From Nereocystis luetkeana (Eukaryota; Sar; Phaeophyceae; Laminariales; Laminariaceae): a stretch of DNA of 64,000 nt. A model generated the notes under the pieces. It made no database searches. It saw only the letters and a program-made list of their open reading frames with translations, and was not told where the DNA came from. This document shows, in pieces, positions 34,722 through 64,000 of this stretch. The stretch is taken from positions 3,746,001 through 3,810,000 of the forward strand of contig JARUPZ010000011.1 of assembly GCA_031213475.1 (NCBI GenBank), written 5' to 3'. Every line of letters begins with the position of its first letter. The first letter of the stretch is position 1. A program made the translations under genes and the position numbers.

Positions 34722-34756
34722 AACAACGGCGGCACCACAACAACAAGAACAACAAG

Positions 34757-34824
<68 letters not shown>

Positions 34825-36664: not shown

Positions 36665-36748
36665 TAAATGTGCACTCTGAATGCAGCACAGAAAAGAGAC
36701 CAACAAGTAGTATCGATCCGCCTAGAGCAAGTTGCTCGTGCTGCGCAC

Positions 36749-38439: not shown

Positions 38440-38540
38440 CACCACGGCGAGGTTCGAACTCGGGTATCAATGCTACCACTCCTAACAGCAGTACTACTGT
38501 AGCATTCGAGTCTAACCACTATTAATAGACTACCGGGGCG
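38440..38540 (-). tRNA. tRNA-like sequence (pseudogene or intron-containing)
   Basis: On the minus strand, acceptor arms CGCCCCGG and CCGTGGTG pair at seven of eight positions. TA follows at positions 8-9, then a D-arm GTC...GAC enclosing TATTAATAGTGGTTA. A T-arm CGAG-TTCGAAC-CTCG is well formed. The anticodon region AATGCTAC...GTAGCATT makes an 8 bp stem with an over-long loop containing a TAGTACTGC-type insertion. The oversized D and anticodon loops suggest a decayed tRNA, a SINE head, or a tRNA with an intron. I cannot assign an anticodon. Confidence 0.45.
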
Positions 38541-38631
38541 ACCGCCTATACATACATGAAGTGTTGATATTCTATGTGTTCGATATAGAATATTTGATGC
38601 TGGTGCGCTGTTGTGCAGTACATACACATAC

Positions 38632-38740
38632 TTAAAGTTACCCTTTTCCTAAAATCACTCGACTATAAGCACCTGCCTCCTACTTACTTGAAGTTACCCT
38701 TTTATTTCCTAAAATCACTTGATCATAAGGACCTGCCTCA
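38632..38740. repeat. ~57 bp tandem pair
   Basis: AAGTTACCCTTTT...CCTAAAATCACT...ATAAG.ACCTGCCTC occurs twice in direct orientation. Confidence 0.8.
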
Positions 38741-38794
38741 CGCTCAGCGAGTCTCCCACGATTTTTTCAGGGCTTTTCGCGGGTCAGGTCTAAC

Positions 38795-39635
38795 CTCACG
38801 GGTCGGGTCGGGTCGGGTCGGGTCAGCGGACCCGACCCGACCCGCGAAAATTTTTAGGTATATTGACTTGACCCGACCCGTGAGATTATTTGAATATCTC
38901 TTGACCCGACCCGACCCGACCCGCGAGATTTCGAAACCTCCTGACCCAACCCGAGCCGACCCGCCACTTTCCGACTGACCCGTGAGACACGGGTTTCATG
39001 CGGGTCGGGTCACCTTGACCCGCGAGACCATTTATCTTGACCCGAAGGTTCGACCCGCGGATCTGGCCCGTAGGTGGGCACTTCAAAAACAATTTAATGT
39101 TCATTTTAGTGCCCCGAAGCGATGTATGACCTGGCTGTAGTGGGTATGAATGGATGCGGGCATGCGTATATGAATTTGGCGGTGTTTTAATGTCTGAATA
39201 TGATACCAATAAAGGGGTGTTATGGAGTATTGGTACGAGAGAAGCCTTTGGGTAAGAGAGCGGGAAGTTATTCAAGTGTCGGGTCCGCGAGCCGAATGCG
39301 CGGGTCCGACCCGCGGGTCAGCAAAAAACAACTCGCGGGTCATGCTGGCCCGACCCGCGAGTGACCCGCTTCTCGCGGGTCATGTCCTGACCCGACCCGT
39401 AAGCTTTTCATCACCTACCTCTTGACCCGACCCGACCCGACCCGTGATATTTGAAAAACTCTTGACCCGACCTGACCCGACCCGCGAGCTTTGAAAAAAT
39501 CTTGACCCGACCCGACCCGACCCGTGAGGTTTTGAACACTAAGTCTTCCTGACCCGACCCGACCCGACCCGTGACATTTTGAACATCAAGTGACCCGACC
39601 TGCGGGTCGGGTCATGACCCGCGAAAAGCCCTGGA
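38795..39635. repeat. GGGTC-type minisatellite upstream of gene B
   Basis: Two blocks (38,795-39,060 and 39,275-39,635) of GGGTC pentamers and ~45 bp units TTGACCCGACCCGACCCG...GATTTGAAAA. Same family as 15,344-15,690 but expanded. Strong G/C strand asymmetry that switches orientation at the ends. Confidence 0.88.
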
Positions 39636-39639
39636 TTTT

Positions 39640-44540: not shown

Positions 44541-44559
44541 TGTACCCTAGGACCGCTAC

Positions 44560-44722
44560 GATTGAGACTGGCTCTCACCTCTATGCTGACTGAGTTCGAT
44601 GAAAAGATCAGAGAATTCGACCAGCTAGCTCCTCGGAGTCGGGACTGGCTCTCACCTCTATGCTGACTTGAGTTTCGACGAAGAGACTAGAAAAAATTCC
44701 CAGCTAGCTCGTCGGAGGTCCA
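44560..44722. repeat. ~77 bp tandem pair
   Basis: GACTGGCTCTCACCTCTATG...CAGCTAGCTC.TCGGAG occurs twice in a row (from 44,566 and 44,643). Confidence 0.85.
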
Positions 44723-45576
44723 GAGTGATCATGAGACTCCAGATATAAATATGTCAGAACGAGCAACGTGGTCGATAAACGAGGAACCAAGCGCGTTGCG
44801 AGCGATATATGTGCACAAAAGGTGGACACGTGACCAGTGGACATATCGATTGGAGGTGAGTCTAGCGCTTTGACTTTGGCATCTCACTTTGGATGTGGTT
44901 CCGAGTAAAGAGCAATTTGTTGCCGGCTTGGGCAGAGCATGCCACAGGGACACGATGGCGCCCTCACAATGGACCCTCTACGAAGCACTGGTCACGAAAG
45001 TCGCTACGCTTTAAGTTCTTAACCCGCGCTCCAACAGCTCACCATGCAGGTGACGCCGTGAAGCCACTTCTCCAGCCTGTCCGCGTCAGTAAAAGAGTCG
45101 ATCATGTCTCCCAGGAGAGTGTATTCTACGACTAAGATCCGCGACTTTAGTTGTGGTCGCTGCCCAGATTAGCTATCTGATGGCCACATCTGCGCCGTCG
45201 CCGCCGCCGCCCCATGCCTGGGGCCTGCGTCCAGAAACGTGGGAGAGGATTGCGGTGAAGTGACATTTCTTGTAGACGGTTCCTCGGATCTGGCCGAGGA
45301 ATTGTCCTCGCATTTGTTCAGCTTCGCCCTTGAACTGCGTCCGCAGCGTTTCCGAGAGCTGAGCCTGCGGAGTGTCTATTCACCGGAATTAGCTGCGGAA
45401 AGGCGATCGCTCGCGGCAGCAGCGATAGATGGGACTTATAGAGGGCACAACGCTATTTCCGCAGCTGAAACGTTCGACTGAGCCATTCACTCCTTTCCAT
45501 TCTTCCGCATAAGGCGGGAGTGCCACGGCTATCACTCTTGACGGTTCGTACCCTTGAACAATTCACACCGACGCAA
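44723..45576. other. No confident gene
   Basis: Contains ATGGACCCTCTACGAAGCAC at 44,961, which recurs in diverged form at 47,606 (CAATGGACCTTCCACGCAGC), so a dispersed repeat is present. The plus frame at 45,239-45,481 (80 codons) shows no motif. Confidence 0.3.
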
Positions 45577-45673
45577 TTGACCCATTTAGAACCGCAGTCC
45601 CGTTTTGGGGATAAACTACTTAAACATTGAGTGGTTTGTCCCCAAAACGGGACCGCGGTTCTAAAAGGGTTAA
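45577..45673. mobile_element. 97 bp inverted-repeat hairpin element
   Basis: Two 44-nt arms, 45,577-45,620 and 45,630-45,673, are reverse complements with about six mismatches (TTTAGAACCGCAGTCCCG against CGGGACCGCGGTTCTAAAA; GTTTTGGGGATAAAC against GTTTGTCCCCAAAAC), around a 9-nt loop. It is a MITE-like or structured-RNA candidate. The outermost bases are TTGA and TTAA. Only one copy is in the window. Confidence 0.75.
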
Positions 45674-46750
45674 CATCGTTCCTAGTACCTTTTCTCAAGG
45701 AAAATAACGTTGTCGTTGGAGATCGAAGAGATATTGAAAAAACAGCGGACGCGGAGAGTGCACCTTGTCCCTGACTTCGTCTGCAAGAGCATGAAGCGAG
45801 GTCGCGAGGCTCATCCCGTTGCCTGAATCCGCGCGGGGCCGCTCGATCTGCGCCAAAAGCACCGCAGTTGACACCGTAACGCGGCTGGCGTGCCATCACT
45901 CTCACGCCCCAGCAGCTAATAAAGCATCAATTGTTGAGAGGGCTAGGCAGTATCGCTGCGATGCAGTAAATCGTGTACTGGGATGAGTCAGAACGGGGAA
46001 CATGGAGTTAAAGCAACATGGTAACCAAATAGGTATGTAGAGCGTCACCAAAGATATACGTTGCGCTGCTGTTGCCCAGCGTACTACTTAAATAGTTAGG
46101 GTGGACGCTCGCACGAACGTAGGTAATCAAGGACAGACAGAAGAGGAATGAAACGATGTTGTTTTCAACGTTGATGATTTCGAATAGACTAAGTTTCTAA
46201 ACAGGAACTTCCAGGAAAAGAGGGGGATTTTTTTAATGTGAAACTACGTTGCTAGAGAAAGGGTAATATCGTAGACCTTCCTCTCCAGACAGCTCCTTCC
46301 TTGCTATTGTCGAGCGCCGGCGCCAGCTTGCTTGGTCGCTCAATCGGCTGCGGAAGAAATAATATTTACTGCTGTATCATATCGTATAGACACAACAGTA
46401 CAACGCTGTTTTTTATTCGTTGCACTAGACCTGTTACGTATGTGCGCAGCAGACCCGTCCGAGTGCAATCAGTGGGTGGCGTCAGCTGCAAAACCCTGAT
46501 TTCATTTTTTTTGTGGGCATCGAGATCGTTCAAGATCGGCATTGTTTTCGGAGATCGCAAAACACATCGATATCTCAATACCGTCAATTCTAGACCGGCG
46601 ATATAACAAAGTCGATCGGATTCAATACTAGAACGGAATATTTTGCCATGGGATGTCCTAGGTCGCAAAAAACTTACGCAGTCAGTCTTGAAACATCCGG
46701 CGGTGAATCGCCGGCGAAGGCCCCCTTCGGCCGACGCAGTGGGTGTTGAT
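45674..46750. other. No gene seen
   Basis: Open frames at 46,301-46,606 and 46,366-46,668 overlap on opposite strands, with no motif. Nothing else recognised. Confidence 0.3.
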
Positions 46751-46763
46751 GGTCGTGGCTTCT

Positions 46764-46815
46764 TTTTTTTTTAACCCTCCGGCAGATTGATAAAAATAAG
46801 GCTTTGACGGTGGGG
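46764..46815 (-). mobile_element. Short A-tailed repeat, minus-strand copy
   Basis: On the minus strand, GCCTTATTTTTATCAATCTG is followed by CCGGAGGGTT and an A-run. It matches the insert at 55,348-55,402 in LINE A, where target duplications prove mobility. Confidence 0.55.
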
Positions 46816-47984
46816 GGTTGACGTTAACTACAGTGGGGTTGGGGACTCGCGGCCAATAGCCATGATGACCATAGAAAAAAGTATGAGAAGGAAGACGCCT
46901 CGCACCAATCTGCTTGCTGCTCGTCGTGCTGCTAGTTTTGCTCTCTCGCACTCCCGCTGTCCGTGGAAATTGTCTCTCGCCACGATATTTGTGGTGGTGA
47001 TTCACTCTACTGATCGTGGTTATTGGCTTCTGCGTTTCGGCGTCTGCGTTGTTGTTGCCTCCTGCGTGTTGCCTTCTGCAGCGTTGCTGTTGTTGCGTGT
47101 TGTGTTGTACAACGCGGGGTTCACCTGCTATTGTCCCCTGTTGCCTTGCGCCACTCCTGATTTCTGACGGTGATAAAGTGATGCAGAAGCTTTCAGCCCT
47201 CGGACGCTAAAAGAACTCGGCTCCTCACATCTGAGACTGGCTTACCTGGTGCTCTTTGAGTTCGAATGTAGTACCTCTGGGGCTGGGAGTGAGGACCTCA
47301 ATCGGTTGTACAGTGTTACCGTTGTGGGTCGGAACAGACAACGCGGATGGACAGCGGTGCAGCGGGTGCGGTGACGGGCACAGCGGTGCACGATAGGCGC
47401 GAGGCCGACACGACAGGTATCACAGATCTCTAGGGCTTGCTTTTCTTTCTTTCGTTGGGTGGTGTTTAGTAAACACCAGGTCGGTCCAATCGCTGTGTGT
47501 TGGCACTATCAGCAAAAACCAGAGGCCTTCCCATGTGAGGAAACTATGCGCTGTAAACCTCCATTGTTACGGCAGGATTTCCTACAGCTCATTCCCTACC
47601 TGTACAATGGACCTTCCACGCAGCACTGGTCAGTACAGTCGCTACGCTTCGATGCATAAATCCCAGCACGACCGCGCTGCAACAGAGGATGCCTACATCC
47701 GAGGCCTCTTATCTGCCTGTTTCGTTGCTGCGTGATTGATGGTGCTGTTAGTGGCTGATGGTGTGTTCGCGCCCCCCTCGCACAACCAACATTCCATTTA
47801 ACCACGTTTCCGAAAACATACACTTTGTCCGTAAACATTAGGATCGATTGTTGCATATAATGCCATACACTGTCCGCCCAAACTTCTGCGTGCTGACTGA
47901 TGATGGGTGCTGCGTGCCACCCTCCTCCATCGGTCCCTCCCTCTCTCCGCCGGTGCTACGCAACACCCGCGGCGACGACGCGCT
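46816..47984. other. No confident gene
   Basis: Hydrophobic Leu/Val/Cys frames at 46,862-47,210 reflect T-rich trinucleotides. A second member of the ATGGACC.TC.ACG repeat lies at 47,606. Confidence 0.3.
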
Positions 47985-48475
47985 TGCCCGCGCTGACGAC
48001 TGGAGTAGGTGTGTTGGCTGGTGTGTTTCATTTGAGTATCACTATGGTGTGTTTCGTTTTGCTCGGTGGTGTCTTTGCGAACTTTTTTCTCATTGGCGGT
48101 GGCTCCATGCAGTATTTGCTTGCAATGGTAGAAAATGTATGTGGTACTTACTCCCAAGCTTCGAAATAACAGTTTTCGACCTAACAGTCAGGCACATTTG
48201 AGTCGGACACGTTTGGACGTTTGCTTGCGGAAGACACCAGTATCGCTCGCGTTGACGACGTGAGTAGGTGTGTAATTTGGTGTCGTTTAATTTATTGGTG
48301 GTGTGTTGTGTTTCAATTTCGGTTCGTCGTGTCTTCGTGCATTCATTGCTCGTTCGGTGTGTGCCTTCGTGCAGTATTTGCATATAATGGCAGAACGTAT
48401 ACGTGGTATTTAATTATTCGAAAAGACAAGTTTCGACTTGACAGGTAGACAGACACGTTCCAGTTGGACACGCTT
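47985..48475. repeat. ~257 bp tandem duplication
   Basis: CGCTGACGACTGGAGTAGGT (47,991) recurs as CGTTGACGACGTGAGTAGGT (48,249), and GCAGTATTTGCTTGCAATGG (48,109) as GCAGTATTTGCATATAATGG (48,372). A shorter trace of the unit lies at 47,838. No frame is conserved between units. Confidence 0.8.
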
Positions 48476-48954
48476 GCACCTTTAATTGAAGAAGACTCCC
48501 GTACCTGGGGCATGGGTCGGGTGGGAGAACCTGTTGAAGTTGGAGGGGGGCACACCATTTTTCATCCGTACCGAGTCCAAGTACTTCCGAGAACTATTGC
48601 TCAAGAATTAGGCAAGAGACGTGTGCTCAAGGATGCTTTGTTGGCTGTGATGCCCGAGAGGCCGGGACTCTATACACCTGCAGTCGTTGGCTCGTAAAAT
48701 TAAAGCAATACGACTCCCACAGGTTGTTGACAGTTAACGCGGTTGGTGTGGATGGCGGAGGTATGCGTAGAGCAACACAATCAAGACGCTGGATCAAGGG
48801 AAGCAGTACAACGTGCACCAGTCCAAGGAGTCGCAGTAAAACGCCCACGAGGAGCGAGAATCGTGGCGCTGGTACGTGACCCCCTCCCCTCGACCTGTCC
48901 GCCCAGTTGAGTTCGAACCGCACTTTGGGGCTACCTTTCACAAATTCTTCGCGA
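48476..48954. other. No gene seen
   Basis: A minus frame (48,627-49,019) and a plus frame (48,464-48,697) have no recognisable content. Confidence 0.3.
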
Positions 48955-49452
48955 CAACCCCTCCCATATATTGTATTTAGGTCGGATGGGCGTCGGTTGG
49001 CAACGGCACTAAAAAACACGCCGCTCGTTACATGAGCAAGACAACCAAGGTATTGATTTATTTTTGTCTTGGCGGTCGGTCACAGCTGGCAATCCACTCA
49101 TAAATCATTTGTGCGGGGGGGGAAATCTTTACTACGCACAAGGAGAATAATCGCATCACGTATGTTTACGGTGAGGCACCCTCGAGGCAGCTACATAGTA
49201 CCCCGATTGCTGTGTCTGGAAGGCGGCCACACCGGAAAACAACTTCATCGAAGATGTCATCCATGTGCGGTCTTTAGTAGGATGCAGCTTACCCTTTACG
49301 CGACTTGCCGAACACCTCAGGGCGCTTCATGCTTGGAGCAGGCAATGTCTGCCTGGTCGGGGAAAACCGGACGTGCTCCGTCTCTGGATTGTAGGGGTGC
49401 GAGGGTCTATGATCATACGAGTAAGGCCGTGCATAATATCGAGTATACCCCC
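48955..49452 (+). mobile_element. Short poly(C)-ended retroelement, copy 2
   Basis: Starts near GGGCGTCGGTTGGCAACGGC, contains GGATGCAGCTTACCCTTTAC and GGTCTATGATCATACGAG, and ends ATCGAGTATACCCCC. Diverged from copy 1. The LINE A monomer array begins directly after its C-rich end. Confidence 0.75.
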
Positions 49453-50339
49453 TCGGATTTAGACATGAAATTTCTGAACAAACTACCCGGTACTTTGTTT
49501 ATCATACCCAAAACGCAAAAACCAGATTTAGACGTAAAAAAAACGAACAAACCAGTTTTTTCCCCCATTATGATTACACAAACCGGATTTAGACATGAAA
49601 TACTCAACTAAGGGTCATTCTTATCGGAGAGCTTTTTCCCCAAGTTTTCGACATTTTTTTCGCGCAATTTTTCAATCTTCCATATTTTCCTGTTTTTTTT
49701 TTTCCAAATATTGGAATGTTAACGAACTTGATATTTTTGCTTCTGGAGAATTTCACGAATAGTGACAGAACGCCTCCGTATATCGATACATATCTCCAAT
49801 TATTTCCAAACTTTGGAAATTTTGGAAAAAACGCTCTCCGATAAGAATGACCCTAACTATTTTTTTTCTTAAACCACACACGCAAAAACCAGATTAAAGT
49901 GAAACCATTGAACTAACCAGTTTTTTCGTTCCCCCTTACCAATACACAAACCGGTTTTAAACATGAAATTACCCAACTAACTAGTTTTATTTATCGTACC
50001 AAAAATGTTAAAAACAGATCAAGACGTGAAACAATTGAACTGAACAGCTTTTTTTTCCCATATCATAACACAAACCGGACCTAGACATGAAATTACTCGA
50101 CTAATCATTTTTTTCCGATACCGAAACCCAAATCAGACATATACATATGAAATTACTCACCTAACCGTTCGTTTTTGTTTCCCATACCAAACCACAAACC
50201 GGAGCTAGACACGAAACAACGCAACTAACAAGTTTTTTCCCCCCTTATCCGAACCCATACCAGACGTAGGCATGAAAAAAAGTATATAGTTTCTCCCATA
50301 TCATACTATTACTGGTAGTAAAGGCGTAAAAGATAGACA
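49453..50339 (+). repeat. ~60 bp monomer array in front of LINE A
   Basis: Repeating ACCGGATTTAGACATGAAAT, then TACTCAACTAACCAGTTTTT, then CCCATACC.AAACGCA. About ten diverged units, split by the MITE at 49,611-49,854. The same array precedes LINE B at 56,040-56,946, so it is probably the LINE 5' UTR/promoter region, similar in layout to the monomers of rodent L1. Confidence 0.75.
49611..49854. mobile_element. MITE-2, 244 bp, with AACTA target duplication
   Basis: Terminal inverted repeats AGGGTCATTCTTATCGGAGA and TCTCCGATAAGAATGACCCT (at least 22 bp, then T/A-rich). It is flanked by direct AACTA at 49,606-49,610 and 49,855-49,859. The interior is AT-rich and non-coding. It splits a LINE 5' monomer, so it is younger than that array. 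Confidence 0.9.
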
Positions 50340-51589
50340 GAAAACCTAGCATGAAGGCAGACCGCCTCACATGCACACACATAGATACAGCATGGTCACC
50401 CCAAGATGTTCAATTCACATGAAGGTTGGGTCTTGTGGTAAGATACCCGTAAAAAATACCGATTTCCATTGGGCGGTGGAAGTCTGGTCTGACATTAGTC
50501 CTAAAATCCCCGACATTTGGTGCACATAACAAGCGCTAAATGAAGGGAAGGGGTGGATGATTCAAGACATTAAGTCAAGACCTATTATACTCATGAAACA
50601 AACACCTTGCATTTGACCGACCACATGACCACAAAGAGAAGGAGAACCAAGCGGTACGTAGATATCTTGATATCTGGAAGGATAGAAGCCGGTACAAAGT
50701 GTGGGGGGATTGTTGGCCAAGCTTTCGGCAGTGAAGGTCTACTCGGGAGCATTAGTGGGGTAGTTACCCATGGTGAAACGTACATATGACGGAGAAAGAG
50801 ACGTACGGGGCATCCCGATGTGTGAGTAAGATTTTGTGTTATGCAAGCCGTCCTTGAACCTTGCATGGTAAAAATGACCTCCCTGGAGAAAAGTAACCAG
50901 TACAGCAGCGGAGCAAGAAGAAACAAGATACGATCGTGGGACGCCAGGATGGTTACCATGCAGATCGCCTGGCACAAACGTGGGGTACTTGTGTTAAGGG
51001 TGTTGAACTTGGCTCCAGGCTACGAGCCCGTGTTGGAGACACTATTTAGTGTGGTGCGCCGGCAAAAGAACTGAAAGACACCAGACCCCCAACGAGTACT
51101 AGGATTGGGGAGTCCCAGTAACTTGAACATTTCCCACTACCATTATGAACACAAACACGCTGGAGACATTCTCGGAAGGGATTAGGAGAAAGACGGTGAG
51201 GCAGGGTGGGTGGAGAAAGAAAGACTGGCAGGGTAAAGTACTCGTACTGCTGATATTTGGAGTTCCTAGCGAAAGCGAGCATGGAGCGGCGGAGGATAGA
51301 GACAGAATAAAGTGTCGGCATGGGTTTAAAAAAACTAGGGTGGAGAGTATGTATAGCTAATGGAATAGGGAAACTCAGACGCAGTCCTACGGCGAAGGAA
51401 GGTGAGGGGAGGCAGGAAACAGCAAGGGACCCAAAGGGAATGGGGGAGAAACATAGGGGCGCAGAACAACCACATAAAATCAGAAAATGAAACGAAAATA
51501 ATGCTCAAAGGAAAGAAATAGAAATATTCTGTAGCGGCAATGGAGAAGGAGCAACATGTCAGACTAGAGCGGATAGTGGAACGAAAAAG

Positions 51590-52440
51590 AGGCTAAGAAT
51601 AGGATCATGGAATGTATGTGGGTTCGCCACGGAACCGAGCGCAAAATGATCGAAATTGCCGAACAAATAAAAAGAAAGCGCGACCTAGACGTAGTGGAAA
51701 ATCAAGCGTCGTGGGAGAAAGGGGGGGGGGGTGTACTCGATAGGAGAGATGTACTCGATCTCATCCATGGCCGTAGTCGTATGACCATAGACCGGGGGGG
51801 GGGGGGGGGGCATAGGATGCAAAGTTGGAGAGTACGCACGGATGGGGAAAAGAGGAAGGGACATAATAGCAAGAAATAGGGGGGCGGGGGGCGTGGGTTC
51901 CTAGTCAAATAATATCTGTGACATAATAGAGGTGATCAAAGACAGTACATTCGACGAAAGCATATGGGTCAAGGTACCAGGGAAGCGGGCAGCGAAATAT
52001 TACCTCTTGGGAAACATCTAGATGCCCCCAGAGTCGAAGAATAACGACAAAAGATATACAGAGGAAGTTCGGAAAAGTAGCCGTAGATGCACAGAAGTAT
52101 AAGAGGCAAGGAGGCGTAGTACTACAGTAGTGGGAGATATTAATTCAAGAATTGGGAAGGCAAGCAAACCGAACGAGAGCATTGGACAGTATGGTGAAGT
52201 AACAAAGAACATAAATGGGGAAGATATGTTTAAGTTCCTCAATCACAACGAGATGCAGACGTCGAACGACAGAGTAAAGAAGACAGAACTGGAATGGACC
52301 AGGCAGTGCACACTTAAGAGAGAAATCTCTATCCTTGGCTTTATACGGAATTGTGGTTGAAAATGGAAGCGGTAAGGAAACGGAACTACATATATGCGCA
52401 GTGGACGTAGGAACTACGGATCACTGTATAGTATGAACAC
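51590..52440 (+). pseudogene. LINE A AP-endonuclease segment, broken
   Basis: RIGSWNVCGFAT near 51,597 is the N-terminal motif of the endonuclease/exonuclease/phosphatase fold of non-LTR elements. The catalytic region reads VVGDINSRIGKASKPNESI near 52,130 (normally GDFN). The segment is interrupted by an insertion at 51,721-51,810 and by later frameshifts, so it is not functional. Confidence 0.75.
51721..51810 (-). mobile_element. 5'-truncated short-element stub in a G-run
   Basis: Between G11 (51,721-51,731) and G17 (51,794-51,810) lie about 61 bp equal to the 3' end of the short element, reversed (GTGTACTCGATAGGAGAGAT...GGTCTATGGTCAT read on the other strand). LINE B at 58,425 has only the uninterrupted G8 run. 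Fixed 3' end, lost 5' part: the signature of target-primed reverse transcription. Confidence 0.82.
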
Positions 52441-52539
52441 ACAGTCAACAGACGAGAGAGTTATCAAACATAGACGAGGTAGGAAATTGCACAGATGGAG
52501 AATAGATAAACCAGAAGTAGACGAGCAACGGTAAGCGAT

Positions 52540-53230
52540 CCAGGAAGATATGGCCAAAAATGCAGAGCAATTTTCCGAGCTATTGGAAAAAATAGGTACA
52601 ACAAGGTCTGATATAGAGAGGGGTGATGCAGGAGCTAGGATAATAGAAGGATGGGAGCAGTTGGTCAAGACCACAGCAAGTAAAGTAGTGGGGAAGAAGT
52701 TGACAGTATGCAGCAGAGCAGTAAAATGGCGGGATGAGGAAGTGAAAGAGGCTATAACAGTAAGGAGAAAGGCACACGCAAGGTACACATCGAGTAAAAC
52801 TACGGCAGGATGGGAGGAATATGCTATACTGCAGCAAAAATGAAGCAAAAGAGATGGTAGAGAAGAAGAAGAAAGGGATATGGAAAGGCGTAGTAAATTA
52901 AACGAATGAAGATTTTGAGGGCGGGATGAAGCAGATATGGGTAGGGATAAAAGGGATACTGGGCAAGTAAGCAGGAGAGGCAGACACGGGAAAAGCTACC
53001 TTAAGAGCACGGAACGGTAAAATGGTTAGTAGTTCGAAGGGAAGTACTTGTCGAGCATTACCGTAAGCTAGGAACACCCACAGCCAACAAAACGTTCGAC
53101 GCAGAATTCGAGAAGGAAATCAACGCGTGGGCAGAGGCGAACGTAGATGCACCAGAAAGGAAAGACCGTGGTTCGGAAGGGTTACAGAGAGAGAGTTCAC
53201 AAGGAAAAAGGTAAAACAATTTGTAGCTAG
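52540..53230 (+). pseudogene. LINE A linker between endonuclease and RT
   Basis: 52,550-52,843 reads MAKNAEQFSELLEKIGTTRS through VKWRDEEVKEAITVRRKAHA, as in LINE B 59,154-59,504. Broken afterwards. Confidence 0.7.
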
Positions 53231-54525
53231 ACTGAGGAATAGGAAGGCAGCAGGGGCAGGCCAAATAGTGAATGAATTTATGAAAGTACGGGAGAGAAGG
53301 AATGCTTGCCATGATGGTTGTATAACTGGATATGGAAAAAGGAGTACGCACCCAGGAGGTGGAGAGAAGGAGTAGTAGTAAACTTATTCAAGAAAGGAGA
53401 TACGGCTGACCCGGGGAACTATAGAGGGATAACGCTACTAAGCACAGTGGGCAAAACATTTTGTAAGATTTTGAACGATAGAATGGGAACGATGATGATG
53501 GAGAAGGAAGACAAAATAAGCGAAGGGCAGGCAGGGTTTAGGCCAAACCGTAGCTGCGTAAACCGTGTGTACACCTTAGGCAAGATAATCCAAGGTAGGA
53601 AAGACGCGGGGTTAACCATGCAGTGTTTCTTTCTAGATGTACAGAAGGCCTACGACACATCACGGAGAAATGGAGTGTGGGGACAATTATGGGGAATAGG
53701 GAGAGGAAAGATGTGAAGAATAATGAAAAATAGGACCAAATGTGCGAGACGTGCTGTCATGCTGGGCGGGGAAACATCGAAGTACGTTGATATTTTGCAA
53801 GGAGTTGCACAGGGATGTACGCTGTCACCCAACCTATTTCAAGATATATATTAACGACCTGATAGTAGCAGTCAAAAGCAGCAAGGCAGGGAGTCAAGGT
53901 AAGAGAAGATACGGTGTCGGGATTGGCGTTTGCTGATGACTTCGTGGGGATATCAACAGCACCCGAAAAATTGCAGAAACAACTATCACGAGGGGCCATA
54001 GTTAATAGGACCAAATATTGTTAGTAAAAAAGGTTAAATATATAGGTTTTTATGTATACCACAGGTCCTATTAACTATGGTCCCACGTCATAGAGAAGGC
54101 ACCATAATACACTAGGAAATAGAGGGGGACGGCCAACGTCGAGACGTGTGCAGTAATTGTTTGTACCGAAGATAAGGTGATTCCGATAAATTCCAGTTGG
54201 AAGTGGGGAGAAGATGAATTGCCGATCGTACACCAGCATACGTACCTTGGCGTAGCGATCTCAAAATACTGCTCTTGGGATACACATATAGCCAAAGTAG
54301 TAGGAAAGGGCAAATCAGACGTAGGCAAGATGGGTGCGATCCTAACAGACTCGAACCATGACACCAGGATTAAGAGATGTATCCTGATCAATGTGATAGT
54401 ACCAAAGCTGGAATATACAGGAGAAGTATGGGAAGGGAACGCGAAACTCGTAAAACAGTTGGAAGCAGTACAGATAACAGCAGCTAAAAAAACTCCCAAG
54501 ATGCTCAAGTAGGACTAGTAGTACA
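53230..54525 (+). pseudogene. LINE A reverse transcriptase, broken
   Basis: 53,318-53,716 carries PRRWREGVVVNLFKKGD, NYRGITLLSTVGK, QAGFRPNRSC and FFLDVQKAYDT, all standard non-LTR RT blocks. The catalytic FADD box survives at 53,929-53,940. After the MITE insertion (53,986-54,090) the frame 54,177-54,512 continues with YLGVAISKYCSWD. Frameshifts and the insertion rule out activity. Confidence 0.85.
53986..54090. mobile_element. MITE-1 copy nested in LINE A, TA duplication
   Basis: 105 bp with arms GGGGCCATAGTTAATAGGACC-type left and GGTCCTATTAACTATGG right. The uninterrupted LINE sequence is AACTAGAGAAGG (seen in LINE C near 63,540). Here it reads AACTA, the element, then TAGAGAAGG, giving a TA target duplication as in Tc1/mariner-type elements. 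Orientation is opposite to the 12,582 copy. Confidence 0.9.
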
Positions 54526-54684
54526 GTATTAAGAGCAGAACGGGGAATGCGCCCATTCAAGAGAAATAGAGACGTGAGAAAGTTGAAATGACAATATAAA
54601 GTAAGGAACGTGCCAAAAAGAGGGTGCCAGCATAGTTGATAGAGCAGTATCGGAGAAAGTAACAAAAGGGCGAGCTGGAATAAG

Positions 54685-55335
54685 GTGGAATACCGTAGAC
54701 GAGAAAGTATGGAAGCATGTAGGGGGAAACCAAGAAGAGGCGATGTCCGCCGGGAAGTTTGGGAGGTACAAGGAAGAAATAGAAGAAAGGACAGAAAGAA
54801 GGGAAAGGCTAGCGCTAAGAAACAAGGCGGAATCGGAGAAACACGTAGAGATGTACGGGGGATTGAGGGAAGCAACAGGAATGAAAACGTATTTGTACGG
54901 CCCAATGCACTTCGCGAAACGCTGAAACTGCTATTCCGTCACGGTGAACTGGACCTGCCAGAAAGAAGAAAGAGGTGTACCGGTAGCCGGGAGGAGGAAA
55001 TAGATACACAGATGTGCCCGTGTGGCGAAGCAATAGAGAGTAGAACTCACATAGCAGGATAATGTGAAGTGTTCAAGGAGGAACGGGATGTGTTAGAAGA
55101 GATGAGGGAGATAGACGAATGTGACATGGAGGATTATGATGCACTAGATAGCAGCGAGAAAACGGTCGCTATCCCAGGAGATAGATGGTGGCGACAGGCG
55201 GCGAAACAGGAAGGGGATAAGATTAGCAAAACATTTTCATGTAATATACGGGAACATCGTAATGAGTGCCCAATTGTTGGAGGTGTCTCTATTAGGAGTA
55301 GGAACGGTGCACCGTCTCGGAAGGGATGCTTGGTC
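54685..55335 (+). pseudogene. LINE A C-terminal region with Cys/His knuckle
   Basis: Near 55,012 it reads MCPCGEAIESRTHIAG, a stop, then CEVFKEERD. This is the C-x-C...H...C pattern common at the C-terminus of non-LTR polyproteins. A stop codon falls between His and the last Cys. Confidence 0.7.
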
Positions 55336-55347
55336 AATGGTCAAACT

Positions 55348-55402
55348 TAGTGAGCTTAAGCTTTATTTTTACCAATCCGCCGGAGGATAAAAAAAAATAA
55401 AA
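55348..55402 (+). mobile_element. Short A-tailed insert with 12 bp target duplication
   Basis: 55 bp ending in an A-rich tail, flanked by AATGGTCAAACT at 55,336-55,347 and 55,403-55,414. LINE B has the target once. The core TTTATTTTTACCAATCCGCC is shared with 46,764-46,815. Poly(A) tail and TSD indicate retroposition by a different LINE type from the poly(C) family here. Confidence 0.82.
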
Positions 55403-55440
55403 AATGGTCAAACTGCCAAGGCAAGAATGAAATGAGTACG

Positions 55441-55968
55441 CCCCCCCCCTATCATATACCTGGTATATATAGATTGACCACGACGCTGTAAAACATGCCT
55501 CTCACTGCGTGAGCTAGACCGGCAGGGTACCGTTTTTTTGTTTTTTGTTTTGGCGGCTGCCTCGGCTGGCGGTCAAGTTAGATCATTTTTGAGCGGGGAG
55601 AACCTTTACTCTGCACAAGGGGGATGATCGCATCGCGTAGTGTGTATATGGTGAGATACCCACGAGGCAGTTACATAGTAAACCCATTGCTGTCTCTGGA
55701 AGTGGCCACACCATAAACTTAATCAATTCATTGAAGCTGTCATCCATATACAAGAAAACCCGCCTCGAAAGCGGTTCTTAGTAGGATGCAGCTCACCCTT
55801 CATGCGACTCGCCCACCACCTCACGGCGCTTCGCGTTTGGTGCAAGAAATGCATGCCTGGTCTATGGAAACCCGACGCGCTCCGTCCCGGCATTGTAGAG
55901 ATGCGAGGGTCTATGGTCATACGACTGCGGCCATGCATGATAATGAGTACACCCCCCCCCCCCCCCCC
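55441..55968 (+). mobile_element. Short poly(C)-ended retroelement, copy 3
   Basis: Starts in the C9 tail of LINE A and ends AATGAGTACA plus C17 (55,952-55,968). Internal landmarks: GCTAGACCGGCAGGGTACCG, the T-run, GGATGCAGCTCACCCTTCAT and CCCGGCATTGTAGAGATGCG. LINE B begins right after the C17 run. Confidence 0.82.
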
Positions 55969-56946
55969 TCCTCTAAATCCGGACGGGTTGGCGTCGAGTG
56001 GCGACGACGCCGTAAAACAAGCCACCAGACACTAGACATGAAACGTACAGACGGCTCCTTCCGACATAAATGACATATAGACCAGACCAGACATATACAC
56101 CATGCAAACAACAGAAAAAAAACAGACCCGCCGGTAAAACAAACACAACATAATATACACGGTTCACAGTTATTTTCCGGCACCAAAACACAAAACCAGA
56201 AATAGACATGAAATTACTCAACTAACATTTTTTCCCCCATACCGAAACGCAAAAACCAAATTAAGAAATGAAACAATTGAACTAACCAGTTTTTTCCCCC
56301 CATATGATTACACAGACCGGATTTAGACATGAAATTACTCAACTAGCTATTTTTTTTTTCTCACATCAAAAACGCAAAAACCAGATTTAGATGTGAAATA
56401 ATTGAACTAACCAGTTTTTTTTCACCATAAAATAACACAAACCAGATTAGACATGAAATTGTTCAGCTAACATATTTAGACATGAAATAATTGAACTAAC
56501 CAGTTTTTTTTTTCACCATAACATAACACAAACCAGATTAGACATGGAACTACTCAGCCAACATATTCTTTTTTATCATACCGAAAACGCGAAAAACATA
56601 TTTAGACATGATACAATTGAACTAACCAGTTTTTTTTTCACCATAAATAACACAAACCGGATTCAGGCATGAAACTACTCAACTAACCATGTTGTTTCCC
56701 GATACCAAAACCCAAATCAGAAATATATATGAAACTACTCACCTAACCGCTTGTTTGTTTGATTGTTTGTTTGTCTTGTTTTGTTTTTTCCCATACCAAA
56801 CCACAAACCGGAGCTAGAATGAAACAACTCAACTAACAACTTTTTTTTTCCCCATATCCGAACCCATACCAGATATAGACATGAAAAAAGTATAACGCTT
56901 CTCCCGTATATCATGATACTGGTAGTAAATGCATAAAAGATAGACC
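55969..56946 (+). repeat. LINE B 5' head and ~60 bp monomer array
   Basis: The first ~45 bp (GGGTTGGCGTCGAGTGGCGA, CGACGCCGTAAAACA) resemble the 5' head of the short element. Then a dozen ~60 bp units follow with TAGACATGAAAT, ACTCAACTAACCAG and T-run plus CCATA. This arrangement ties the head, monomers and LINE body into one element. Confidence 0.7.
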
Positions 56947-57752
56947 AAAAACCTAGCATGAAGGTGGACCGCCTCACATGCACACACATAGATACAGCAT
57001 GGTCACCCCAACATGTTCAATTCACATGAAGGTTGGGTCTCGTGGTAAGATACCCGTAAAACTTTACCGATTTCCATTGGGCGGTGGAAGTCTGGTCTGA
57101 CATTAGTCCTAAAATCCCCGACATTTGGTGCACATAACAAGCGCTAAATGAAGGGGAGGGGTGGATGATTCAAGACATTAAGTCAAGACCTATTATACTC
57201 ATGAAACAAACACCTTGCATTTGACCGACCACATGACCACAAAGAGAAGGAGAACCAAGCGGTACGTAGATATCTTGATATCTTGAAGGATAGAAGCCGG
57301 TACAAAGTGTGGGGGAATTGTTGGCCAAGCTTTCGGCAGTGAAGGTCTACTCGGGAGCATTAGTGGGGTAGTTACCCATGGTGAAACGTACATATGACGG
57401 AGAAAGAGACGTAATGGGCATCCCGATGTGTGAGTAAGATTTTGTGTTATGCAAGCCGTCCTTGAACCTTGCATGGTAAAAATGACCTCCCTGGAGAAAA
57501 GCAACCAGTACAGCAGCGGAGCAAGAAGAAACAAGATACGATCGTGGGACGCCAGGATGGTTACCATGCAGATCGCCTGGCACAAACGTGGGGTACTTGT
57601 GTTAAGGGTGTTGAACTTGGCTCCAGGCTACGAGCCCGTGTTGGAGACACTATTTAGTGTGGTGCGCCGGCAAAAGAACTGAAAGACACCAGACCCCCAA
57701 CGAGTACTAGGATTGGGGAGTCCCAGTAACTTGAACATTTCCCACTACCATT

Positions 57753-58094
57753 ATGAACACAAACACGCTGGAGACATTCTCGGAAGGGATTAGGAGAAAG
57801 ACGGTGAGGCAGGGTGGGTGGAGCAAGAAAGACTGGCAGGGTAAAGTACTAATAGTGCTGATATTTGGAGTTCCTAGCGACATGACGAGGATTGAGTTCA
57901 AGAGGAAGTACGAAGACGTAGAACTGTACTGCTTCGCAATAGGAAACGTAGAACGAGAGGGAGAACACTTTCGAATCACGCTAAAGCCGACAGCGAGCAT
58001 GGAGTGGCAGAGGATAGAGACAGAAAAAGTGTCGGCATGGGTTAGAAGACTGGAGAGTATGTACAGCCAATGGAACAGCGAAACTAAGACGTAG
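57753..58094 (+). pseudogene. LINE B ORF1-like frame
   Basis: 113 codons, MNTNTLETFSEGIRRK to SMYSQWNSETKT, with charged and aromatic character (FKRKYEDVELYCFAIG). Its place before the endonuclease suggests an RNA-binding ORF1-type role, but no zinc knuckle or RRM is visible. LINE A has a ~110 bp deletion here. A further upstream open stretch (57,449-57,682; also 50,841-51,074) encodes an identical 77-residue frame in both LINEs of unknown meaning. Confidence 0.5.
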
Positions 58095-58289
58095 TTCTAG
58101 GGTGAACGAAGGTAAGGGGAGGCAGGAAACAGCAAGTGGTCCAAAGGGAATGGGGGAGAAACATAGGGGCGTAGAACAAGAAGACAAGCACATAAACGGA
58201 AATGGAAAGAATGCTCAAAGAAGAGATGACAGAAATACTCGTAGCGACAACGGAGAAGGAACAGGTAAGACTAGAGCGGATAGTGAAAC

Positions 58290-58990
58290 GAAAAAGAGGC
58301 TGAGAATAGGATCATGGAACGTATGTGGGTTCGCCACGGAAGAACGAAAAAGGATCGAAATTGTCGAACAAGTAAGTAAGCGCGACCTAGACATAGTGGG
58401 AATTCAAGAGCCATGGGAGAAAGAGGGGGGGGAGATAGGATGCAAAGTTGGAGAGTACGCATGGATAGGGAAGAAGAGGAAGGGACAGAGTAGCAAGAAT
58501 AGGGGGGCGGGGGGTTCCTAGTCAAATAATACCTGTGTGACGTAATAGAGGTGATCAAATACACTAAATTCGACGAACGCATATGGATTAAGATACCAGG
58601 GGAGCGGGGAGCGAAATATTACTTCTTAGGAAACATATATATGCCCCCAGAGTCGAAGAATACGGTAAAAGATATACAGAGGAAGTTCGGAGAAGTAGCA
58701 GTAGATGTACAGGAGTATAAAAGGCAAGGAGAAGTAGTACTAGTGGGAGATTTCAATTCAAGAATTGGGAAGGCAAGCAAACTGAACGAGAGCATTGGAC
58801 CGTATGGGGAAGTAACAAAAAATAAGAATGGGGAAGAGATGTTGAAGTTCCTCAAACACAACGAGATGAAGACGTTGAACGACAGAGTAAAAAAGGCAGA
58901 ACCGGAATGGACTAGACAGTGCATACAAAAAGGAGAAAGCTCTATCCTTGACTTTATAGTAGTAGAAAACGGACGTGGGAAGGAAACATA
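58290..58990 (+). pseudogene. LINE B AP-endonuclease domain
   Basis: Motifs in order: RIGSWNVCGFATEERKR, DLDIVGIQEPWEKE (metal-binding Glu), GNIYMPPES, VVLVGDFNSRIGKASK (catalytic GDFN near 58,745) and SSILDFIVV. The frame is split by a shift in the G-rich run at 58,503-58,513. In the family this domain nicks target DNA to prime reverse transcription. Confidence 0.85.
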
Positions 58991-59029
58991 ACTACATGTA
59001 TGCGCAGCGGACGTAGGAACTACGGATCA

Positions 59030-59504
59030 CTGTCTAATATGGACAGACAGTCGACAGACAAGAGTTATCAAACAAAGACGAGGTAGAAAATTACACGAAT
59101 GGAGAATAGATAAACTAGAAGTAGAAGAGAAACGGGAAGAGTTCCAAGAAGAGATGGCCAAAAATGCAGAGCAATTTTCCGAGTTATTGGAAAGAAAAGG
59201 TACTACAAGGAACGATATAGAGAGGGATGATGCAGGAGCTAGGATAATAGAAGGATGGGAGCAGTTGGTCAAGATCACAGCAAGTAAAGTAATAGGGGAA
59301 AAGTTGATAGTATGCAACAGAGCGGTAAAATGGTGGGATGAAGAAGTAAAAGAGGCTATAACAGTAAGGAGAAAGGCACACGCAAGGTATACATCGAGCA
59401 AAACTACGACAGGATGGGAGCAATATGATGTAGCTAGAAAGAAAGTAAAAGAGATGGTAGAGAAGAAGAAGAAGAAAGGGATATGGAAAGGCGTAGTAAA
59501 TTAA
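59030..59504 (+). pseudogene. LINE B linker region
   Basis: Reads through MAKNAEQFSELLERKG and VKWWDEEVKEAITVRRK to a Lys-rich end EMVEKKKKKGIWKGVVN and a TAA. LINE A has the same TAA in the same place. Confidence 0.75.
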
Positions 59505-59799
59505 ACGAATGAAGACTTTGAGGGAGGGATGAAGCAGATGTGGGTAGGGATAAAAGGGATACTGGGCAAACAAGCAGGAGAGGCTGACACGGGAATAGCT
59601 ACCGTAAGAGCACAGAACGGTAAAATGGTTAGTAGTTCGAAGGGAAAAAGGGAAGTACTTGTCGAGCATTACCGTAAGCTAGGAACACCCACAGCCAACA
59701 AAATGTTCGACGCAGAATTCGAGAAGGAAATCAACGCGTGGGCAGAGGCGAACGTAGATGCATCAGAAAGGGAAGACAGTGGTTCGGAAGGGTTACAGG

Positions 59800-61376
59800 G
59801 ATAGTTCACAAGGGAAGAGGTAAAAAAATGTGTAGCTAAACGTAAGAATAGGAAGGCAGCAGGGGCAGACCAAATAGTGAATGAATTTATGAAGTACGGG
59901 GGAGAAGGAATGCTTACCATGCTGGTGAAGTTGTATAACTGGATATGGAAAAACGAGTACGCACCCAGGAGGTGGAGATAAGGAGTAGTAGTAAACTTAT
60001 TCAAGAAAGGAGATAAGGCTGACCCGGGGAACTATAGAGGGATAACGCTACTAAGCACAGTAGGCAAACCATAATGTATAATTTTGAACGATAGAATGGG
60101 AACGATGATGGAGAAGGAAGACAAAATAAGCGAAGGGCAAGCAGGGTTTAGGCCAAACCGTAGCTGCGTAGACCATGTGTACACTCTAGGTAAGATAATC
60201 CAAGGTAGGAAAGACGCGGGACTACCAACGCACTGTTTCTTTCTGGATGTACAGAAGGCCTACGACACAGTATGGAGAAATGGATTGTGGAAAAAACTAT
60301 GGGAAATAGGGATCAGAGGAAAGATGTGGAGAATGATGAAAAAGATGACGGAATGTGCGAGAAGTGCTGTGATGCTGGACGGGGAAATATCGAAGTATGT
60401 TGATATTTTACAAGGAGTTGCACAGGGATGCACGCTGTCACCCAACCTATTCAAGATGTATATTAATGACCTGATAGTAGCAGTTGAAGGAGCAAGGCAG
60501 GGAGTCACGGTAGGGGAAGATACAGTGTCGGGATTGATGTTTGCTGATGACTTCGTGGGGATATCGGAAACACCTGAAGGATTGCAGAAACAAATAGAGA
60601 ACGCGCTACAATACACTAGGAAATGGAGGGTGACGGCGAACGTCAAGAAATGCGCAGTAGTTGTTTGTAACGAAGATAAGGTGAACCCGATAAATTTCAG
60701 TTGGAAGTGGGGAGAAGATGAATTGCCGATCGTAGACCCGTATACGTACCTTGGCGTAGAGATCTCAAAATACTGCTCCTGGTATACACATATAGCAAAA
60801 GTAATAGGAAAGGGTAAAGCACACATAGGCAAGATGGATGCGATCCTAACAGACTCGCACCTTGACACCAGGATTAAGAGATGTATCCTGATGAATGTGA
60901 TAGTACCAAAGCTAGAATATGCAGGAGGAGTATGGGAAGGGAATGCGAAACTCGTAAAACAGTTGGAAACAGTACAGATGACAGCAGCTAAAAAAATCCT
61001 AAGATGCTCAAGTACGACTATTAATAGTAATACAGTATATAGAGCAGAACTGGGAATGCGCCCACTTAAGACAAACAGGGATATGAGAAAGTTGAAATGG
61101 CAATATAAAGTAAGGAACATGCCAAAAAAGAGGTTGCCGGCCATAGTTGATAGAGCTGTATGGGAGAAAGTAACAAAAGGGCGAACTGGAATAAGGTGGG
61201 ATAGCATATTTGAGAAAGTATGGAAGGATATAGGGGGAAACCAAGAAGAGGTGATGTTCGCCGGGAAGTTTAGGAAGTACAAGGTAGAAGTAGAAGAAAG
61301 GGTAGAAAGAAGGGAAAGGCTAGCGCTACGAAACAAGGGGGAATCGGAAAAACACCTAGAGATATACGGAGATTGA
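59800..61376 (+). pseudogene. LINE B reverse transcriptase
   Basis: The N-terminal part (59,810-60,070) has NRKAAGADQIVNEFMKYGG, PRRWR-stop-GVVVNLFKKGD and NYRGITLLSTVGK. A single open frame of 430 codons then runs from 60,084 with QAGFRPNRSC (residues 19-28), FFLDVQKAYD (52-61), GVAQGCTLSPNLF (111-123), the catalytic FADD box (153-156, bases 60,540-60,551) and YLGVEIS. These are the canonical blocks of non-LTR RT palm and thumb. In-frame stops upstream separate it from the endonuclease. Confidence 0.9.
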
Positions 61377-61888
61377 GGGAAGGAATAGGAATGAAAACGT
61401 TTCTGCACGGCCCAATGGACTTCGCGAAAACGCTGAAGCTGCGGTTTCGTGTAGGCGACCTGGACTTGCCAGAAAGAAGAAAGAGGTATACCAGTAGCCG
61501 GGAGGAGGAGGAGGAAATAGATGCACAGATGTGCCCGCGTGGCAAAGCGATAGAGAGTAGAACTCACATAGTAGGAGAATGTGAAATATACCAGGAGGAA
61601 CGGGACGTGTTAGAAGAGGAGATGAGGGAAAGAAACGAATGTGACATGGAGGAGTTTGACACACTAGATAGCATCGAGAAAACGATCGCTATCCTAGGAG
61701 AAAGATGGTGGCCACAGGCGGCCAAACAGGAAGGGGATAAGATTAGCAAAACTGTTCTATGTAATATATGGAAACAGCGCAATGAGCGCCCAATTGTTGG
61801 AAGTGTCTCTATTAGGAGTAGGAACGGTGCTCCGTCCCGACAGGGGTGCGTGGTCAATGGTCAAATGACTAAGGCAAGCAACAAATGA
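61373..61888 (+). pseudogene. LINE B C-terminal region
   Basis: 171 codons, joined to the RT only through a frameshift at 61,376. The knuckle reads C54-P-R56-G...H66...C70. LINE A keeps Cys at the R56 position, so one zinc ligand is lost here. It ends TKASNK just before the C-run. Confidence 0.7.
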
Positions 61889-62881
61889 GTACGCCCCCCC
61901 CTCCCCCTCTCCCCTGTGGGTAGGAATACAAGGGATACTGGGCAAACAAGCAGGAGAGGCAGACACGGGAATAGCTATCTTAAGAGCACCGAACGGTAAA
62001 AAGGCTAGTAGTCCGACGTGGAAACGGGAAGTAGGAGCAGAGCATTACTGTAGGCTAGGAACGCCCACAGCCAACGAAAAGCTCGACCCAAACTTTTACA
62101 AGGAAATCAACGCGTGGCCAGAGGCGAGCGAGGATGCATCAAAAACAAAAAATAAAAAAGTGGTTCAGAAGGGTTACAGAAAACCTTCACAAGGGAAGAA
62201 GTAAAAAAGTGTGTAGCCAAACTTAAGAATAGAAAGGCGGCAGGGGCAGACTGTTAATAAAATAATTTTGTGTAGTACGGGGATGAAGGAAAGCGTACCG
62301 TGGTTGGGTTGCCCAACTGAAGATGGAAAAACGAGTACGCACCTAGGAGGGGGCGAGGAGGAGTAGTGAATTTATTTAAGGAAGGAGATAAGGCCGACCC
62401 GGGGAACTATAGAGGGATAACGCTGCTATTAATAACCACAGTAGGCAAAACATGTTGCGATATTTTGGACCAGAGAGCGGGAACAGCGATGGCGAAACAA
62501 GACAAAATGAGCGAAGGGCAAGCAGGGTTTAGGCCAAACCCTATCTGCGTAGACCACATTAGGTAAGATAATCCAAGGTAGGGCGGACGCGGGGCTAACA
62601 ACGTACCGTTTCTTCCCACATGTACCGAGAGCCTACGACAGAGTATGGGGAAATCGAATATGGAAAAAGCTGTGGGAAACAGGAATCAGAGGAAAGATGT
62701 GGAGAATGATGAAAAATAGACAGAATGTGCGGGAAGCGCTGTGTTGCTGGACGGGGAAATATCAAAGTATGCTGTTTATTTTACAAGGAGTTGCACAGGG
62801 ATGTACGTTATCACCTAATCTATTCAAGATATTTATTAACGACCTGATAGTAGCAGTCGAAGCAGCGAAGCAGGGAGTCAC

Positions 62882-63438
62882 GGGGGGGGGGTGGGGTGTA
62901 CTCGATAGGAGAGATGAACTCGATCTCATGCATGGCCGTAGTCGTATGACCATAGACCCTCGCATGCCTACAATGCCGGGACGGACCATGTCGGGATTTC
63001 ACCGAGGAGAGATGTACTCGATCTCATGCATGGCTGTACTTGTATGACCATAGACCCTCGCATGATTACAATGCCGGGACGGACCATGTCGGGTTTTCAC
63101 CGACCAGGCAGGCATTGCTTGTACCAAGCGCGAAGCGCCGTGAGGTGTCCGGCGAGTCGCATGAAAGGTGAGCTGCATCCTACTAAGAACCGCTTGTGAG
63201 GCGGACTTGCATATGGATGACAGCTTCAATAAGTTAATAAAATTCCCGGTGTAGGCAATTCCAGAGACAGCAATGGGAGTACTATGTAACTGCCTCTTGG
63301 GTGCCTTACCTTGAACGCTACGTGATAAGATCATTCCCACTTGTGCGGAGTAAAGGTTCTGAACCTCGCACAAATGATCTAACTCAACAACCAGCTGTGA
63401 GCGACTGCCAAACAAAACAAAAGCCACGGAGGGGGGGG
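62882..63438 (-). mobile_element. Short poly(C)-ended retroelement, copy 4, in LINE C
   Basis: Inverted copy. Its 3' end is at 62,882-62,910 (G-run, then GTGTACTCGATAGGAGAGAT) and its 5' end is truncated at about 63,430 next to another G-run. LINE B at 60,506 has ACGGTAGGGGAAGAT at the same point. A ~105 bp terminal segment is duplicated in tandem inside it (62,897-63,105). Confidence 0.85.
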
Positions 63439-63520
63439 ATACGGAGTCGGGATTGATGTTTGCGGATCACGGTGGGGGACGATACGGTGTCGGGACTGAT
63501 GTTCGCGGGTTCTGTCAGAT
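63439..63520 (+). repeat. Local duplication next to the LINE C insertion
   Basis: GATACGGAGTCGGGATTGAT is followed within ~40 bp by GATACGGTGTCGGGACTGAT, each with TTTGCGG/TTCGCGG. LINE B has the segment once. It may be an over-long target duplication or a repair scar. Confidence 0.6.
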
Positions 63521-64000
63521 ACACCCGAAATATTGCGGAAACAACTAGAGAAGGCACCAGAATACACTAGGAAATAGAGGGGGACGGCCAACGTCGAGAA
63601 GTGCGCAGTAGTTGTTTGTAACGAAGGTAATGTCAACGCGATAAATTCCAGTTGGAAGTGGGGAGAAGGTGAATTGCCGATCGTAGACCAGTTTACGTAC
63701 CTTGGCGTAGAGATATCAACATACTGCTCCTGGGATACATATATAGCAAAAGTAATAGGAAAGGGTAAAACACACGTAGGCACGATGGATGCGATCCTAA
63801 CAGACTCGCACCATGACACCAGGATTAAGAGATGTATCCTGATGAATGTGATAGTACCAAAGCTAGAATATGCAGGAGGAGTATGGGAAAGGGAACGCGA
63901 AACTCGTAAAACAGTTGGATACAGCAAAGATGACGGCAGCTAAAAAACTCCTAAGAAGCTCAAGTACGACTAGTAGTACAGCATTAAGAGCAGAACGGGG

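Follow-up and report, generated by a model that had tools for sequence, protein, structure and literature searches.

Retroelement copies chained by cytosine runs in Nereocystis luetkeana suggest a LINE and a short partner element that insert into oligo(C)/oligo(G)

How does a genome come to hold retroelements joined head to tail, all in one orientation, with C-runs at their joints? The question is raised by a stretch of 64,000 nucleotides (nt) of Nereocystis luetkeana (Phaeophyceae), referred to below as the window, which covers positions 3,746,001 to 3,810,000 of contig JARUPZ010000011.1 (C11:3746001-3810000 in our numbering of contigs) within a 465-Mb assembly of 1,987 contigs (GCA_031213475.1). 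The chain is composed of long interspersed nuclear elements (LINEs) and of a short element of about 510 bp that resembles a short interspersed nuclear element (SINE). The original prediction held that both belong to a non-LTR (non-long-terminal-repeat) family that ends in poly(C) and uses C/G homopolymers as its target. We conclude that the LINE and its non-autonomous partner very probably insert into oligo(C)/oligo(G) runs of roughly seven or more bases, through target-primed reverse transcription. The elements of the window are as follows (runs are written as the base and its number).

48958-49452, + strand: short (SINE-like) element S1, ending in GAGTATA-C5 (direct reading and self-comparison)
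49453-55449, + strand: LINE A, ending in GAGTACG-C9, with its start inside the 5' tandem repeats (direct reading and self-comparison)
51721-51810, - strand: 5'-truncated short element in LINE A, between G11 and G17
55450-55968, + strand: short element S2, ending in GAGTACA-C17
55969-61901, + strand: LINE B, ending in GAGTACG-C8, the source of the genome-search query
61902-61914, + strand: C-rich junction TCCCCCTCTCCCC of 13 nt between LINE B and LINE C (direct reading)
61915-64000, + strand: LINE C, 5'-truncated, continuing beyond the window to ~64641, 3' end absent
62882-63438, - strand: 5'-truncated inverted short element in LINE C, between G10 and G8
32139-32684, + strand: solo short element S3, between C16 and C6, inside the C-run of another repeat family

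Direct reading and self-comparison bear out the predicted chain of S1, LINE A, S2, LINE B and LINE C, which share one orientation and are joined by C-runs. Three further short-element insertions, all in C/G runs, had been missed in the original prediction. Each of the five short copies in the window carries its C tail on the C strand of the run, the two inverted copies occupying G-runs of the + strand. LINE C, which follows the 13-nt C-rich stretch, is 5'-truncated as had been proposed, and its 3' end is missing as well: when LINE C is followed past the window (locus L170), its homology ends at about window-equivalent position 64641, some 190 bp short of the LINE 3' end and without a C tail. 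LINE A is also 5'-truncated, its first base falling within the 5' tandem repeats of the LINE.

The family can be classified from the features that its copies display. A reverse transcriptase (RT), an endonuclease, target duplications, 5' truncation, a 3' tail and a lack of LTRs together indicate that it is a non-LTR retrotransposon. Two regions of LINE B are relevant here.

60084-61376, + strand: reverse transcriptase open frame of LINE B (RVT_1, expectation value E 1.7e-25)
58150-58914, + strand, approximate limits: region of LINE B homologous to frame P0002 of the genomic copy L069 (sequence homology)

The copy at locus L069 has an open RT frame of 921 residues (RVT_1, E 2.8e-28; the frame is also cited for L005) and, upstream of it in frame P0002, an endonuclease domain of the apurinic/apyrimidinic endonuclease (APE) type (Exo_endo_phos, E 6.2e-13, over the curated cut-off). 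The homologous region of LINE B (58150-58914) has no + strand frame of at least 150 amino acids in the frame list. The nearest solved structures to the RT are L1 ORF2p (E 7.7e-19) and R2 (E 1.1e-17), a likeness that fixes no clade; the endonuclease piece P0002 has no solved-structure match at E 0.01. Self-comparison of positions 48801-64000 (the 20 largest of 33 repeat families) reveals internal 5' repeats in LINE B but no long direct repeat shared by its two ends. The 5' region of the LINE (window 49454-50280 and 56170-56890) is built of diverged tandem units of ~60 bp, possibly a promoter or an RNA-binding array. LINE A contains three apparent nested inserts, one of them spotted by eye only. 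Besides the inverted short element these comprise a palindromic element of ~110 bp at 53983-54094, similar to a miniature inverted-repeat transposable element, with further window copies at 5942-6049, 12589-12697 and 36552-36662 and one within L069 at a position other than that in LINE A, and a segment at 49612-49854 with inverted ends of ~21 nt (GGGTCATTCTTATCGGAGAGC), which is the one seen by eye. No relatives of the elements were confirmed on viral contigs, and four unrelated frames of the window have no Pfam match at E 0.01.

The short element is related to the LINE at both ends. It has 39-43 nt of the 5' end in common with the LINE at 82-86% identity and 34-54 nt near the 3' end at 76-85% identity, and both elements terminate in GAGTAC(A/G)-C(n). 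In the window there is neither an Rfam match at gathering score nor a transfer RNA (tRNA), in a search that did not extend to promoter boxes, and the short element has internal T-runs (T14 in S3, up to T8 in the copy at L017) that would be expected to stop RNA polymerase III. Because of the missing Rfam and tRNA matches and of the T-runs, the short element looks like a LINE-derived non-autonomous element, perhaps a deletion derivative, rather than a classical polymerase III SINE. The inverted short element in LINE C contains a 98-bp tandem duplication of its own 3' end (window 62907-63103).

Are such junctions a peculiarity of the window? A first look at the genome gave 3,441 short-element candidates and 3,957 candidates for the LINE 3' end, both unconfirmed counts, of which 40 each were scored. 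The first 24 nt of the short element, at its 5' end, occur 1,752 times with at most two mismatches, and 1,365 times under the same limit when four more C's are required upstream, with no occurrence of the control in either case; the matches are spread over many contigs and over separate places within contigs. For the LINE, the best 30 of the 40 scored 3' ends were analyzed, LINE B (L039) among them. The short copies number 70, namely the best 30 of the 40 scored by identity (S3, locus L009, included) and 40 others (L070-L109) chosen by their 5' end, in list order from 100 5'-end places listed (contigs C1-C8), three places being skipped as already in the scored list. Two loci, L018 and L019, hold an identical short-element insertion with identical flanks on contigs C446 and C16, a pattern that indicates a haplotig or a duplicated stretch; they represent one insertion twice, and both are counted among the 70.

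The flanks of these copies have a uniform character. A C-run of at least six lies within 45 nt upstream in 65 of the 70 short copies (background 1.6%) and a run of at least eight in 60 of the 70 (background 0.25%), the background being derived from 45-nt windows on both strands of window positions 1-32000 and 32801-48000. On the other side, a C-run follows the LINE 3' end at all 30 loci, LINE B included, and the expected 3' end is reached in 39 of the 40 short copies chosen by their 5' end (the exception is L080). When the 70 short and 30 LINE copies are tabulated by flank, C/G-runs account for most of their junctions, and siting in random sequence was not found.

A run at a junction could either precede the insertion or be created by it, and paralogous sites that carry no insertion allow the two to be distinguished. 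Where such unoccupied sites are readable, the C/G-run was present before the insertion, with few exceptions. Three contexts are available, the first of which is a run inside the LINE itself.

58425-58432, + strand: G8 target run, empty in LINE B and occupied in LINE A

This run is free of any insert in LINE B and in all 39 further LINE copies fetched, and LINE A holds its inverted short element there. It measures G8 in 20 of the 29 copies in which a script could measure it, and in a few copies a single base interrupts it. The idea that it might be an insertion hot spot was discarded, as it is occupied in one of 41 copies (the 39 together with LINE A and LINE B).

The second context is a ~48-bp tandem unit at window 31997-32138, which belongs to a dispersed repeat that hosts S3 and has 1,438 first-look candidates. 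An uninterrupted C7-9 is found in 12 of the 20 copies fetched, one of the 12 (L157) having diverged flanks, and the remaining eight diverge ahead of the site; L013 is one additional copy, beyond the 20, with an uninterrupted run. S3 sits in this run and both its flanks match the repeat save for a few adjacent T/C differences. The insertion at L104 likewise occupies the run with both flanks matching, as judged by eye, and at L169 the repeat matches on the left side only. The stretch beside S3 from position 32753 onward is a different repeat. In the third context, another host repeat, C7 is present in seven of eight copies fetched and CCCACCC in one (of 39 other places listed), and the short element at L082 is inserted there.

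According to the junctions and the unoccupied sites, the preference for one type of repetitive target, the C/G-run, is strong, and the two together support the prediction of a non-LTR family with poly(C) at its end and a C/G homopolymer as its target. The unoccupied sites reject the simple notion that poly(C) is a tail only and that there is no target preference. A related explanation, which we regard as most unlikely, is that the elements have little insertion preference and that the C-runs at the junctions are brought by element RNAs carrying C-runs at both ends. It would account for the extra, non-duplicated C's at some full-length 5' ends and for tails that exceed the target run, such as the C10 and C11 around L082 compared with C7 at the unoccupied site. 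However, the run is already there at unoccupied sites in all three contexts, the left copies of the target duplications contain it, and 19-30% of flanks are tails or heads of other family members reached through C-rich sequence.

Target duplications provide a further line of evidence for insertion into pre-existing runs. Those that can be measured begin in the C-run. Duplications that extend past the run, defined by at least four non-C letters with at least four C's before them, are found at 6 of the 65 parsed loci, compared with a mean of 0.04 and a maximum of 1 in 50 shuffles. The 65 are those of the 70 short copies that could be parsed (L070, L073, L074, L080 and L103 are outside the test), and an additional duplication past the run is visible by eye at L070.

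With respect to the chains, a same-family neighbor is reached through a C-rich stretch on the left of 16 of 70 short copies and on the right of 13 of 69, as well as in 9 of 30 right flanks of the LINEs. The count is confined to neighbors joined by a C-rich stretch of at most 45 nt, and six left and three right flank matches of short copies and one right flank match of a LINE that lacked such a stretch were excluded; one of the matches excluded (L109, right) is on the opposite strand. All 38 element-element junctions made through a C-rich stretch have both elements on the same strand, and copies in G-runs are inverted. At two places the order of events can be reconstructed. The LINE at L069 is bordered on both sides by a C-run plus GCCGCTC, and as a 5'-truncated short element begins with the right-hand GCCGCTC, a C-run already connected two short elements when the LINE inserted into it. 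At L169/L063, a 5'-truncated LINE (~660 bp of its middle were not fetched) lies between two short elements with a C-run plus GGTACTTTA on both sides. These two LINE insertions, with duplications between older short elements, agree with the predicted landing of new copies in the tails of older ones.

The same observations bear on the possibility that chains owe their origin not to insertion but to tandem duplication, or to recombination or end-joining between C-runs. The C-runs are shared sequence able to mediate such joining, the pair L018/L019 demonstrates that duplicated stretches or haplotigs exist in the assembly, and LINE C has no 3' end. Against this, LINE A and LINE B are 90.5% identical (5,189 aligned columns, short element and palindromic insert excluded) and S1 and S2 only 74.9% (475 columns; S1 and S3, 79.5%), and the junctions are unlike each other. 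As S1 and S2 are far more diverged than LINE A and LINE B, one recent duplicated unit is unlikely, and we reject a plain tandem duplication as the origin of the chain in the window. Moreover, target duplications flank the LINE on both sides at L069 and L169/L063, and the solo insertions S3 and L082 keep both host flanks. In its general form this explanation appears very unlikely to us. The lengths of homopolymers in assemblies are error-prone, which might suggest that the junctions are assembly artefacts; junctions that follow the same logic, with different flanks, are found at about a hundred loci across many contigs, and the probability of an artefact is negligible.

The mechanism that we favor would proceed as follows. 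The endonuclease would nick the G-strand of a run, the exposed oligo(G) 3' end would pair with the poly(C) end of the RNA and prime synthesis of complementary DNA, and the top strand would be cut 0 to ~15 nt further on. Every insertion would leave a C-run at both ends, so that the number of targets would rise with copy number and chains of one orientation would build up. A variant of this scheme, rather unlikely in our opinion, ascribes no specificity for C/G-runs to the endonuclease: the poly(C) of the RNA would anneal to oligo(G) at existing nicks or fragile G-rich sites, and the tail would pick the site. The target and the tail are indeed the identical homopolymer, and G-runs tend to form secondary structure and to break. 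The variant is less readily reconciled with the APE-type endonuclease domain in an open frame of L069 and with the duplications past the run, which fit a staggered cut made by an enzyme. A run recognized by the endonuclease and one selected by the RNA tail would look alike in the sequence.

Several observations weigh against insertion into C/G-runs as we describe it. The upstream run consists of just 4-5 C's in 5 of the 70 short copies, and two of the 39 short copies that reach the expected 3' end (L073 and L074) have no C-run there. Several of the 39 LINE copies with an empty G-run are mutually identical over the stretch read (L138-L141; L110/L111), which reduces the number of independent sites. 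Of the eight copies of the S3 host repeat that diverge ahead of the site, one (L156) is interrupted there by an inverted 5' fragment of the short element, which has a G-run on its 5' side and no run at its inner end, where it meets the host. A diverged copy of the repeat that hosts the L082 insertion (L021) lacks the C7 run, perhaps as a result of later change. Most target duplications fall entirely inside the run, where their length is unmeasurable. If the C's before the duplication are not required, 8 of the 65 loci have duplications of at least four non-C letters, compared with a mean of 2.3 and as many as 8 in 50 shuffles, and this weaker test is not convincing by itself. The duplication test also located the 3' end by means of a required C-rich sequence and is not independent evidence on that end. 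Extra C's lie between the duplication and the full-length 5' end at L070, L088 and the LINE of L069, which the simplest model does not explain; as the truncated LINE at L169 has no extra C's after its duplication, this difference suggests that the 5' end of the RNA may itself begin with C's. Finally, the evidence is drawn from DNA, and G-strand nicking, the poly(C) of the RNA and priming are predicted steps.

A more far-reaching form of the favored scheme is that of a self-renewing target, in which the RNAs of both elements would have C-runs at their ends, the poly(C) end would find genomic oligo(G) by RNA-DNA pairing that directs the choice of site, the endonuclease would be permissive, and fresh C-runs would be left at both ends each time. 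We offer this only tentatively, as it is somewhat unlikely to be correct. If it is true, the supply of targets grows with copy number, and expanding same-strand chains spare unique DNA. Most LINEs are limited either because they insert at random and do harm or because their pool of target repeats is fixed. Since each insertion would duplicate its homopolymer target, the landing pool of the LINE and its short partner can grow. Insertion into C/G-runs also accounts for a nested arrangement of repeats in which repeat annotation would probably see unrelated fragments.

Among known systems, the human L1 and Alu elements have a poly(A) tail matched to a TTTT/AA nick site. The C-run family resembles them in having a homopolymer tail that matches a homopolymer-rich nick site, a short partner mobilized in trans, 5' truncation and target duplications, and among solved structures its RT matches L1 ORF2p best. 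The difference is that the C-run family uses C/G instead of A/T and needs the run more strongly, and consequently its insertions stack in tails. The family offers a natural test of tail/target matching during target-primed reverse transcription, one in which C:G pairs replace the A:T pairs of L1, together with an APE-type endonuclease that may favor G-runs.

The published systems compared below are described according to the parts of the papers that were accessible. LINEs that target microsatellites or telomeric repeats include Togen, which is specific for (TG)n, TRAS, and some families of the HERO, Tx1 and R1 clades, and members of Tx1 and R1 have an APE-type endonuclease (PMC4640811). A simple repetitive DNA target is common to these LINEs and the C-run family, and the APE-type endonuclease to the Tx1 and R1 members and the C-run LINE, as compared by target and endonuclease type; a mononucleotide C-run target is not found in the accessible part of that paper. 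The table of LINE 3' repeats from flowering plants and green algae in PMC3747384 lists (A)n and several units of 2-7 nt, and no (C)n. Among the matches listed in our literature search there was no LINE with a C-run target or a poly(C) tail, most subscription papers and Repbase being outside its scope.

The closest parallel in terms of nesting is provided by Zepp and ZeppL, L1-clade LINEs of Chlorella, Coccomyxa and Chlamydomonas, whose new copies enter existing ones and give rise to nested arrays rich in 5'-truncated pieces (PMC8226300, PMC3446292). A partner SINE with a common tail is described for L1-1_CR of Chlamydomonas, and the table of the same paper has both Zepp and L1-1_CR terminating in (A)n (PMC3747384). 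The C-run family likewise nests into existing copies. It differs from Zepp in that it ends in (C)n, as seen at all 30 LINE ends, rather than in (A)n, and in that it is present on many contigs, whereas Zepp of Coccomyxa forms one cluster per chromosome (PMC3446292). Unlike Zepp, it also uses C/G-runs in unrelated repeats besides its own tails.

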